A stretch of 64,000 bases of DNA. Origin: an uncultured Poribacteria bacterium. GTDB lineage: Bacteria > Poribacteria > WGA-4E > WGA-3G. The stretch is from the NCBI GenBank assembly GCA_951828385.1, contig OX639973.1:6054845-6118844 (forward strand), in the 5' to 3' direction. The translations under genes were made by a program, and so were the position numbers. Shown here one piece after another: positions 10,768 to 15,561 of this stretch. Under the pieces are notes generated by a model. It ran no database searches. It was given only the letters and a program-made list of their open reading frames with translations, and was not told where the DNA came from. Within the stretch, counting starts at the first letter, position 1, and each line of letters opens with the position of its first letter.

Positions 10768-11946
10768 ATGAAAGCGTTGCAAGTACCAGAATTTTCGACC
10801 TATGAAGAAGAAGCCACTTTTTGGGATAACCTTGACACCGCCGATTTTATGGAAGTAGAAAGTTTTTTACAAATGAACCTTACCCGAAAAATTACTGAAA
10901 ACCGAAAAGCACTCGATGCACACGTCCGAGAGATCGTCAAATGGCACTTCAGCCCAAAGACCGGATCTCCTTTCTGGTTGGAATTCGCTGAAAACCTCGA
11001 CTTTGATCCAAGGAAAGAGATCGGCGGCTACGCGGACCTCAAATGCCTCGGACATTTCCAAGACGAATGGCTCCGCGGTGGACCCGTCCGACGCTGGGTA
11101 CCCAAGGCTTACGCCAATGAACCGATCTATGTCTTTGAAACTGGCGGCTCAACAGGTATTCCCAAATCGCGAATCAGCATTCGTGATTTTCATATTGACT
11201 ATGAGATATTCAGCAAAACGCTTTCCGATGAAAGTTTCCCACCCGGTAGCGATTGGCTCATGTTGGGACCAACAGGACCGCGCCGGTTACGACTCGCTGT
11301 TGAGCATCTCGCGCAGCATCGCGGGGGTATCTGTTTCCACGTGGATCTCGACCCGCGCTGGGTGAACCAACTCGTGCGTTACGGGAAAAATGAGGAGTTG
11401 GATGCCTATAAAAACCATGTGATCTCGCAGGCACTCAACGTGCTACGTGCCCATGAAAACGTCCAATGCCTCTTCACCACACCGAAGCTGCTGGAGGCGT
11501 TGTGCGAAAAGATTTCCTTGCCAAAAGCCGGTATCAAGGGCATTTTTTGTGGCGGCACCGAGATGGACGCACAGTTCCACCGCTTCGCACGCGAGGAACT
11601 CGTGCCAGGCATCGACTTTATCCCGACTTACGGCAATACGCTCATGGGATTAGCCACTTGTAAACCCTTTGATCCAGCGGACAACTATGCAATTATCTAT
11701 TATCCACCACATCCGCGTGCTGTCATTGAACTCGTTAACCCAGAAAATCCAGAGGAAACTGTTGATTACGGCGAAACCGGACGCGTCATGCTCACAACCC
11801 TAACAAAAGAATTTTTTGTGCCTCGTTTTCTGGAGCGTGACGAAGCCGAACGCGCCGAACCGATACCAGAATACCCGTGGGACGGCGTTGAAAACCTCCG
11901 CCTCCTCACCGAACTCCAAGAGAGTGTCGTTGTAGGTGTTTATTAG
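10768..11946 (+). CDS. Short ANL-superfamily adenylating enzyme (EhpF-like) with CopG-antitoxin-like N-terminus
   Basis: The ATG at 10768 is fixed by TTAGGAG 9 nt upstream. ANL motifs are clear: the phosphate loop YVFETGGSTGIPKSR, TYGNTLMG, and DYGETGRVMLT. The enzyme should activate a carboxylate as an acyl-adenylate. At 392 residues it is much shorter than acyl-CoA synthetases and resembles EhpF/phenylacetate-CoA-ligase-like proteins lacking a full C-terminal lid. The first 30 residues (KALQVPEFSTYEEEATFWDN) instead look like the CopG-type antitoxin family (F-s-x-E-E-E-x-x-F-W-D). An internal ATG at 10873 would start the pure ANL part but has no ribosome-binding site. The aldehyde-dehydrogenase-fold gene at 14155 could act on its product. 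Confidence 0.75.
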   Translation: MKALQVPEFSTYEEEATFWDNLDTADFMEVESFLQMNLTRKITENRKALDAHVREIVKWHFSPKTGSPFWLEFAENLDFDPRKEIGGYADLKCLGHFQDEWLRGGPVRRWVPKAYANEPIYVFETGGSTGIPKSRISIRDFHIDYEIFSKTLSDESFPPGSDWLMLGPTGPRRLRLAVEHLAQHRGGICFHVDLDPRWVNQLVRYGKNEELDAYKNHVISQALNVLRAHENVQCLFTTPKLLEALCEKISLPKAGIKGIFCGGTEMDAQFHRFAREELVPGIDFIPTYGNTLMGLATCKPFDPADNYAIIYYPPHPRAVIELVNPENPEETVDYGETGRVMLTTLTKEFFVPRFLERDEAERAEPIPEYPWDGVENLRLLTELQESVVVGVY

Positions 11947-12104
11947 TTTTTACGATTGCACCTCTTGAAAATGCGGAACTTGATATTAAAACACAAAGTG
12001 ATAAGAGAGTAGGCTTAAACAGAGCAGCGGAAAAAATAGCAGCGAAAGTCGCTGAAGTTCCGCCATCTTGATTTGAAATCGGGAACTGCGACGATAGGAG
12101 GTAA

Positions 12105-13265
12105 ATGATGGTAGACCTTAGCGACGTTCTTAGCAGTACAGCGAGTGTGCAAGTGCAAGCATATTGGGATCCGATTTCAGATGCTACCTATAACTTGCAT
12201 CAACTAACGGAAGAACAGTTCGCTCGGATCAAAGTAAGATGCCCAGAATTAGTGAATATGGAATGGAAACAAGCGTTGGAACTGTTCAATACGAAACCAG
12301 CGTATCCGGTAAAGGAGTATAACACAACAGATTTTCAAGCTTTTCTTCCATCTTCAACTGCTAAAGTGGGGGATGTTTGGGAACTTGACTCAGAAGAAAT
12401 TCTCCCATTCTTCCGCCAGTTTCACTCGGGCGCAACAACGGAGATCACCATCTTTTCGCACAGAACACCTAAATCTGACGGAGCAAAAGCGTGTTTGCGA
12501 GCGATCTCGCCAGACTATGCTGAAATTGTTTTCCGAATTCATGCACAGTTTGTGCTAAACGCACCCGGTGTCCGTTTGTTGCCGGCACAGTTTGCAGGGC
12601 GGCTGGTACTGGCTCTCAAGGAAGCGGTAATTGTTGAATTTTCTCTGTCTCTGCCGTCACGCAATAGTAATGTAGATGTTAACGCGTTCAGAGCGGCGGA
12701 TATGGCTTTTATTCCGCGCATGGAACTCTCCACTTCATCAAGCACACCTGTACGCGAGATAGCATGGGAAACAACCATCACTGAGGAAGAAGCCCGCAAA
12801 AAGTTAGCGACTGCGTTTTACAAATTCGCTGAAATTGAGTGGACCCCGATTGAAAAGACGGTTGAACTCGCGAAAGCAACAAATCGCCCTATCCACGCGT
12901 TAGTTTTATTTGGTGCACTTGACGACGAATCCTGCTGAGGGACAGGCAAAGGTTTGAGGGCGGGTCCGCTCTCCTCGTCAAAGATTATCAAGTTCCTCAA
13001 CGCACACTTTGTGAACACTTGGGTTTTACTAAGAGAATTGTCCGAACTTGAGGCAGGGGCAAAAGGAGATGCTGCAGCTGCCTTAGCCACAAGGCTCCAT
13101 GAGCATTTTGTCTATCCGGTGGATCCCTTGATTCTGACACCGGAATTAGAGTTTATTCAACACTTGCCGACAAATGAGTTTTACAAGTCTTTTCCGAGTA
13201 ATGAACGAAAATCCGAATATTTTAGGTGGCTAAAGTCATCTTTAGCGCAGGTAGATAGACACTGA
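12105..13265 (+). CDS. Candidate selenoprotein: thioredoxin-like domain with SC-Sec-G motif
   Basis: AGGAGGTAA precedes ATG 12105. The frame runs 277 codons to TGA at 12936-12938, then continues in the same frame for 108 codons to TGA at 13263. The join reads ALVLFGALDDESC-(TGA)-GTGKGLRAGPL. It lies inside a thioredoxin-like segment (RPIHALVLF before it, KIIKFLNAHFVNTWVLLREL after it), where the TGA occupies the second redox position beside Cys. A hairpin with a GGG-starting loop lies 23 nt after the TGA, as bacterial SECIS rules require. Read as selenocysteine, the product is 386 residues with Sec at 278. The N-terminal 200 residues match no family I know. The alternative is a nonsense mutation, but conservation of the downstream frame argues against it. 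Confidence 0.75.
12939..12975 (+). promoter_or_regulatory. bacterial SECIS-like hairpin after in-frame TGA
   Basis: A 6-bp stem, GAGGGC (12956-12961) with GCTCTC (12968-12973, one G-U pair), closes the 6-nt loop GGGTCC. The loop starts 23 nt after the TGA and begins with G. Both fit the published bacterial SECIS pattern of a 16-37 nt distance, a small loop and G among the first loop bases. Confidence 0.6.
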
Positions 13266-13279
13266 AGAGGAGTCCAAAT

Positions 13280-13975
13280 ATGATAACGAAAATTGAAAAA
13301 GTCTTCCGCTCACCCTATACCGTGCCGAACGGTTTGCAAGTTACGGATGATGGTTTATGGATCGTTGACCAGATTACCGATAGAGTCGCCTTAGTTGAAA
13401 TCACATCAGACCCGGACTATACCGTGCCGAAACTCATTCGCGACATTCCGAGCGAATCCTCTAACACAAGCGGGATGACGTTCGGTGGCGGCGCACTCTG
13501 GTTAGCCGCAAACGGTTCAGGCGAACGCTGGCGTCCCGTCCGGGATACGGATGCCGGGACAGGCGAGATTTTCCAAGTCGATCCGGCTACCGGTGAAACC
13601 CTCGGACGCTACCCGATACCCGATGGCGGCGGCACGCACGGTGTCGAATATGACCACTACGATGAAGGGCATCTCTGGGTCCAAACACTTAAGGATCAGG
13701 TCACCCATAAGGTCAGGATTTCGGACTGGTCTGTGCAAAAGACGCTGCCGTTGCCACATGGGCGTGGACACGGTATGGTTCGCGTTGAAGATGGGCTTTG
13801 GTCAACCCATACCTCTGATAGGGTCATCGTCAAACTCAATCTTGAAGACGGCACACCGCTTGATGTGATTGAAGTTCCCGAAGATTACCCTGAGCCACAC
13901 GGATTATCCATCTACGGCGACGATTTCCTCTATTGTGATGCCGCCTCCGGGTGGGTAGCAAAAATTACATGGTAA
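13280..13975 (+). CDS. SMP-30/NHL- or Vgb-like six-bladed propeller protein
   Basis: AAGAGGAGTCC precedes ATG 13280, 14 nt after the candidate selenoprotein, so co-transcription is likely. Repeats such as PNGLQVTDDGLWIVDQITDRV, IFQVDPATGETLGRYPI and MVRVEDGLWSTHTSDRVIVKL are typical of SMP-30/virginiamycin-lyase-like propellers. His residues in GGGTHGVEYDHYD, HGRGHGMV and PEPHGLS resemble the histidines that line the centre of such propellers and may bind a metal. There is no signal peptide, so the protein is probably cytoplasmic. At 231 residues it is short for six blades. Enzymatic function (lactonase, lyase) is open. Confidence 0.75.
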   Translation: MITKIEKVFRSPYTVPNGLQVTDDGLWIVDQITDRVALVEITSDPDYTVPKLIRDIPSESSNTSGMTFGGGALWLAANGSGERWRPVRDTDAGTGEIFQVDPATGETLGRYPIPDGGGTHGVEYDHYDEGHLWVQTLKDQVTHKVRISDWSVQKTLPLPHGRGHGMVRVEDGLWSTHTSDRVIVKLNLEDGTPLDVIEVPEDYPEPHGLSIYGDDFLYCDAASGWVAKITW

Positions 13976-14154: not shown

Positions 14155-15561
14155 ATGATACACATTCCAATTCTACGTGCCGGACGTTCTTACAGAAGCC
14201 TGAACACCGTCAGCGTGTCACATATCAAAACAGGCGAACCCTTAGTCGAGGTGAGCCAGGCCAACCGTGGATTAATAGCGAAGGACCTCGTTGATATCGG
14301 ACTCCAGAAAGAGGCACTTGCACAACGTCCTATCGCTGGATTGATTGCTATCTGTAAAGAGGCAGCGCGTCTTTTCTCAACGGCGACGCTGCCTCTTGAC
14401 GGCACCGAGCAATCCCCGACGGATTATATCCAACAGGTCTCTGGGACAACCGGCTTGCCTGAAGCACTCTGTCAACAGAATCTGGGCAAAATTCAGGGAG
14501 TCATGGAAAACATAGATACCGTTTTAGACGGACTCACCCGTGGATTGGATTTACAACTCCTTGACACTGGGTGGGGTGTCCAAAACGGACGCACGTTGAG
14601 TTATGTCTGTGAAACGGATTCTCTCGGTGCTATCCTGCCGAGCAACTCGCCGGGTGTGCATTCACTATGGGTGCCCGCTATCGCCTTGAAAGTCCCCGTT
14701 GTCCTAAAACCGGGACGCGAGGAACCGTGGACTCCCTACCGTATCGCGCAGGCGTTTATCGCAGCGGGTGCCCCCGCGGAGGCGTTCAGTTTCTATCCAA
14801 CCGATTATTCGGGTGCCAACGAAATCCTGAACCGATGTGGACGTGCTATGCTTTTCGGGGGTGGTTCAACCGTCGCACCGTGGCTGAACACGCCGCGCGT
14901 TGAAATCCACGGACCCGGACGCAGCAAAATCATCATCCACGAAGGTGAGCAGAACAACTCGGAGCAGTACCTTGATCTCATTGTAGAATCGGTCGCTAAA
15001 AATGGTGGTAGGTCTTGCATTAACGCCTCTGGTGTATGGGTAACAGCGAACGGACGTGAAATCGCTGAAGCGTTAGCAGAACGCTTCGCACGTATTGAAC
15101 CGAAACCGCTGGATCATCCAGAAGCAGGAATCGCAGCGTGGGCAAACCCGAAAGCCGCACACGGTATCTCATCGCTCATTGACCGACACCTCAAAGAACC
15201 CGGGGCAACGGAATTAACAACCGGTGACCGAGTCGTCGAATTAGATAGCTGCACCTTCCTTAGACCGACCGTGATATGGTGTGAGGACGCAGAACACCCG
15301 TTAGCAAACACCGAATTCCCATTTCCGTTTGTGAGTGTTGTAGAAGTTTCACCAGTGGAGTTAGTCGAATCTATGGGCGCGACACTCGTTGCTACCGCAA
15401 TTACAGAAGATGAAAAACTCACGCAAGACCTCATAGCAACACCGTTCATTGACCGACTCAATTTAGGCGCGATTCCGACGAATCAAATTTCTTGGGATAG
15501 TCCACATGAGGGGAATCTGTTCGAGCATCTCTACAGACAACGGGCTTTTCAACGCGAGTAA
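14155..15561 (+). CDS. Aldehyde dehydrogenase-superfamily protein (acyl reductase-like)
   Basis: A 468-residue ALDH-fold protein. The cofactor region is represented by LPSNSPGVHSLWVPAIALKVPVVLKPG; the catalytic Cys lies in KNGGRSCINASGVWV; FGGGSTVAPW replaces the usual FTGS turn before the catalytic loop. EFPFPFVSVVEV near the end is the typical E-x-F-x-P segment. These deviations suggest an acyl-CoA or acyl-adenylate reductase (LuxC- or EhpG-like) rather than a classical ALDH. In the phenazine cluster of Pantoea, an ANL enzyme (EhpF) and an ALDH-like protein (EhpG) are thought to reduce a carboxylate; the ANL gene at 10768 makes the same pairing plausible here. The ATG at 14155 has no ribosome-binding site because a dispersed repeat abuts it. 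Confidence 0.8.
   Translation: MIHIPILRAGRSYRSLNTVSVSHIKTGEPLVEVSQANRGLIAKDLVDIGLQKEALAQRPIAGLIAICKEAARLFSTATLPLDGTEQSPTDYIQQVSGTTGLPEALCQQNLGKIQGVMENIDTVLDGLTRGLDLQLLDTGWGVQNGRTLSYVCETDSLGAILPSNSPGVHSLWVPAIALKVPVVLKPGREEPWTPYRIAQAFIAAGAPAEAFSFYPTDYSGANEILNRCGRAMLFGGGSTVAPWLNTPRVEIHGPGRSKIIIHEGEQNNSEQYLDLIVESVAKNGGRSCINASGVWVTANGREIAEALAERFARIEPKPLDHPEAGIAAWANPKAAHGISSLIDRHLKEPGATELTTGDRVVELDSCTFLRPTVIWCEDAEHPLANTEFPFPFVSVVEVSPVELVESMGATLVATAITEDEKLTQDLIATPFIDRLNLGAIPTNQISWDSPHEGNLFEHLYRQRAFQRE

Follow-up and report, generated by a model that had tools for sequence, protein, structure and literature searches.

Selenoprotein N (SELENON, SEPN1) is a selenocysteine (Sec)-containing protein whose loss causes a human congenital myopathy, yet its enzymatic chemistry and structure are poorly known. 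The human protein is 590 residues long (PMC12839072) and carries its Sec at position 462 within an SCUG motif, which resembles the GCUG motif of thioredoxin reductase, with its adjacent Cys-Sec redox pair (PMC12839072). The animal protein is a type II membrane protein of the ER with an EF-hand calcium-binding motif. Lobanov and colleagues described SelN as animal-specific (PMC2375036), and a sponge has it (PMC3473315). We found no paper on a bacterial selenoprotein N in the literature searched, which did not cover most subscription journals. Here, we show that a gene of an uncultured Poribacteria bacterium very probably encodes a selenoprotein and that its product looks like a bacterial relative of selenoprotein N. 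The gene lies in a window of 64,000 nucleotides (assembly GCA_951828385.1, contig OX639973.1, positions 6,054,845 to 6,118,844 of the forward strand), which is part of a 6.66 Mb single-contig genome. The features of the locus are the following (window positions):

10810..11946 (+), conserved upstream neighbour, AMP-binding-like protein (sub-threshold Pfam match)
12096..12101 (+), AGGAGG ribosome-binding site, 6 nt before ATG 12108 and 3 nt before ATG 12105
12105..13265 (+), selenoprotein gene (selenoprotein N-like), 386 codons with TGA 12936 read as Sec, ending at TGA 13263-13265
12318..12731 (+), selenoprotein N-like region upstream of the thioredoxin-like domain, about residues 72-209 (F..FLP, VG..W, Q.HP, ACLRA, FRIHA.F, P.QF.G, NSNVD, MEL)
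12834..13148 (+), thioredoxin-like region, about residues 244-348, carrying the Sec
12933..12935 (+), TGC, Cys277, the presumed selenylsulfide partner of Sec278 (SCUG motif), invariant in one of our alignments (A1)
12936..12938 (+), TGA codon for selenocysteine, residue 278
12956..12973 (+), bacterial-type SECIS hairpin with a 6 bp stem and the loop GGGUCC at 12962-12967, 23 nt after the UGA
13280..13975 (+), conserved downstream neighbour, beta-propeller weakly like virginiamycin B lyase
14155..15561 (+), conserved downstream neighbour, aldehyde dehydrogenase-like protein

A preliminary description, made from the sequence alone, had noted the in-frame TGA and the hairpin and had proposed a Sec-dependent redox protein with a large uncharacterised N-terminal region. 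All of its facts hold and its interpretation is supported. The frame 12105-13262 gives 386 residues with a single internal TGA in the context GALDDESC-U-GTGKGLRAGPLSS, followed by 108 codons. A small correction concerns the start: the ribosome-binding site fits the second ATG (12108) better than the first, so that the product may be 385 residues long. What had been missed is that the N-terminal region belongs to a family that probably resembles animal selenoprotein N, present in 12 Sec-bearing copies in this genome.

The genome has the components required for making selenoproteins. A tRNA-Sec with a UCA anticodon (76.4 bits) is found at 592461-592550, beside selB at 592590-594485 (355 bits), while selA is located at 2902639-2903997 (603 bits) and selD at 1330118-1331041 (363 bits; about 619-1542 of L097, the locus numbering used here for retrieved genome segments). 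Interestingly, selD is itself a putative selenoprotein, with a TGA in the N-terminal CAG-U-ASK motif and a GC-rich hairpin-like stretch after it. Across the phylum, 72 of 85 genomes have selA above the curated cut-off.

The TGA is conserved in the family. The twelve copies of the gene in this genome each have an in-frame TGA, and together with 16 loci from other Poribacteria they gave 28 aligned genes, in which the column is TGA 28 times. In a wider set of 93 distinct sites, found with a pattern that left the residue free, all 93 are TGA. Homologues do not end at the TGA, and no full-length Cys form was seen in the listed matches, in which the entries without a stop are fragments or separate parts of the profile. 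The Sec lies within SCUG in this protein and within SCU(G/A) in most members, with ACU or TCU in a few. Because many of these genomes are metagenome-assembled, a sequencing error or a decaying gene with a remnant downstream frame could be considered, but the recurrence of the TGA at 93 distinct sites across many genomes, with conserved protein sequence on both sides and conserved gene order, contradicts it. A genome-wide reassignment of UGA (to Trp or Gly) would also explain a frame open through UGA. However, UGA ends this gene, and at about the same point orthologues use TGA, TAA or TAG; in addition, selA, selB, tRNA-Sec and selD are present, and the UGA sits at the redox position and is followed by a conserved hairpin. 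Reassignment, frameshift and pseudogene are therefore untenable. Two orthologues (L024:4004-4900 and L022:4001-4849) lack roughly 90-100 residues between about residue 35 and 150 by clean in-frame deletions, yet keep the TGA and the hairpin, which possibly reflects a separable N-terminal module, an assembly fault or decay. Finally, UGA might be used as a regulated stop, with a short form of 277 residues as the main product and Sec read-through only when selenium is plentiful, since such competition is established for Sec codons in general. This is unlikely, because the short form would end before the catalytic residue and lose most of the thioredoxin-like region, and the downstream part is also well conserved, although it is not excluded as minor regulation.

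The hairpin GAGGGC-GGGTCC-GCTCTC would not be convincing from one sequence only, since the window stretch folded alone is not unusually stable (z = 0.47 for 40 nt and -0.15 for 55 nt). Comparison provided the evidence: 27 of 28 genes have the hairpin against 2.2 expected when synonymous codons are resampled, and 91 of 93 distinct sites have it in the larger set, mostly at 23 nt. The codons are frozen, Leu289 being CTC in 28 of 28, Gly287 GGT in 26 of 26 and Arg285 always AGA or AGG. Two registers exist, a GGGUCC hexaloop in the window's group and an AGGU or AGUU tetraloop in the paralogues. When they were taken as one set with the 6-nt-loop register (alignment A3), covariation was no better than in shuffles. 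After their separation, the tetraloop set showed 385 of 390 cells paired against at most 379 in 1000 shuffles, with GC/TA/CG and GC/AT exchanges, although the relatedness of the sequences was not corrected for in that shuffle. A search of Rfam over the gene gave only a chance 5.8S match below threshold.

The region around the Sec is thioredoxin-like. The family profile weakly hits small WCGYC thioredoxin-like proteins of another phylum (7 of 132 genomes), which have signal-peptide-like N termini, and aligns Sec278 with the first, nucleophilic Cys of their CxxC; it also aligns with DUF255/Thioredox_DsbH (PF03190; hhalign 95%). In these proteins Cys replaces Sec, the resolving Cys comes three residues after rather than just before, and there is no selenoprotein N-type region. 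Three members of the family (L028:403-2286 (-), L020:72-1757 and L019:4004-5815) carry an extra C-terminal Redoxin/AhpC-TSA-type (TlpA-like) domain, confirmed by Pfam for two of them, which supports a redox role; the CxxC of this domain is WCGFC in L019 but WNGFC in L028 and L020, so the first Cys is lost in two of three. The thioredoxin-like assignment rests on sequence profiles; the AlphaFold models were too poor to use (pLDDT 49 and 38). With thioredoxin reductase only a likeness of motif is claimed.

Searches of Pfam and NCBIfam with the window protein returned no family, searches of the PDB by sequence and by profile found nothing, and viral contigs and plasmids had no relative. The resemblance to selenoprotein N relies on a human fragment whose sequence is only probable and was not taken from a database, and we consider it a very strong lead rather than a finished test. 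Against this fragment, the bacterial profile scored 194.9 bits (1.4e-61 in a database of one), with 2000 shuffles reaching at most 5.0, and hhalign gave 100%, E 4e-40, and 33% identity over 270 columns. Shared elements include Sec in SCUG and, probably, the pattern LDD.SCUG.G(K/R).LR and the FRIHA.F, P.QF.G, NVD and MEL blocks upstream. Four of five published human anchor points agree with the fragment: Sec462, Arg466 and His389 (PMC8967691) and the length of 590 (PMC12839072). At the fifth, Arg291, the fragment has Gln, whereas the published Arg equals the bacterial invariant R144; Arg291Gln is a reported patient variant. One could argue that the likeness is only the SCUG motif on a generic thioredoxin fold and that the N-terminal region is a bacterial invention, given the provisional nature of the human sequence, the absence of Pfam and PDB matches for the N-terminal region, and the fact that the thioredoxin part also matches generic thioredoxins. 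We consider this unlikely, since the match runs over 270 columns, much of it upstream of the thioredoxin region, and since the disease residue reported as Arg291 falls on invariant R144. The bacterial protein also differs from the animal one. No EF-hand was found in Pfam scans, there is no hydrophobic N-terminal segment in this protein, the SECIS is bacterial and lies inside the coding region, and there are many paralogues, some fused to a Redoxin/AhpC-TSA domain or carrying another C-terminal domain. Since the EF-hand and the membrane anchor of the animal protein are absent, we call it a selenoprotein N-like relative and not SELENON itself.

The paralogues of this genome include tandem clusters of three or four Sec-bearing genes (L025 at 5.40 Mb and L026 at 1.24 Mb). 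Those in L026 have signal-peptide-like N termini, and most carry a C-terminal domain of about 130 residues with no Pfam match, which is duplicated in L025:5670-7697. Within the phylum, 65 of 85 genomes have the family, all within one order (three families, f1 to f3), while other classes of the phylum have none. Eight of these 65 genomes lack a selA hit over the cut-off, but two of the eight have fragments and several are incomplete. Among the 302 genomes sampled from other phyla, only the weak thioredoxin match appeared; this sample is not exhaustive, and the one scan of the whole collection used patterns from a single protein. Around the gene, the AMP-binding-like gene upstream, and the propeller, the aldehyde dehydrogenase-like gene and in most a sulfatase-like gene downstream, keep their places in most of the Poribacteria loci long enough to show them, whereas the three more distant loci L019 to L021 lack these neighbours. 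This marks a stable locus but does not name the substrate. A weak CopG-antitoxin match (window 10780-10893; 28.5 bits, cut-off 28) lies in frame just upstream of the AMP-binding-like gene and is perhaps a separate short gene.

Together, these results support with high confidence a scenario in which SelB and tRNA-Sec(UCA) read UGA 12936 as selenocysteine under the direction of the hairpin just downstream, and in which the product is probably a bacterial relative of animal selenoprotein N, with an N-terminal region of the selenoprotein N type followed by a thioredoxin-like domain where Sec278 occupies the nucleophilic Cys position. Sec insertion is close to certain on comparative grounds, whereas the redox chemistry is inferred from position and homology. 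Most likely, the protein is a thiol/disulfide oxidoreductase in which Sec278 attacks a disulfide or oxidised thiol, after which Cys277 forms a selenylsulfide that is reduced by a thioredoxin-type donor.

It is possible, although only tentatively proposed here, that selenoprotein N moved between animals and bacteria such as Poribacteria, which are known as sponge symbionts, or that it descends from a bacterial family, the bacterial branch having kept Sec, used a bacterial SECIS instead of the eukaryotic one and expanded to 12 Sec paralogues in one genome. Since SelN has been called animal-specific, a bacterial branch reopens its origin. A bacterial relative without membrane segment or EF-hand would give a simpler protein for structure and enzymology, and a single selenoprotein family with 12 copies in one bacterium also shows heavy use of selenium.
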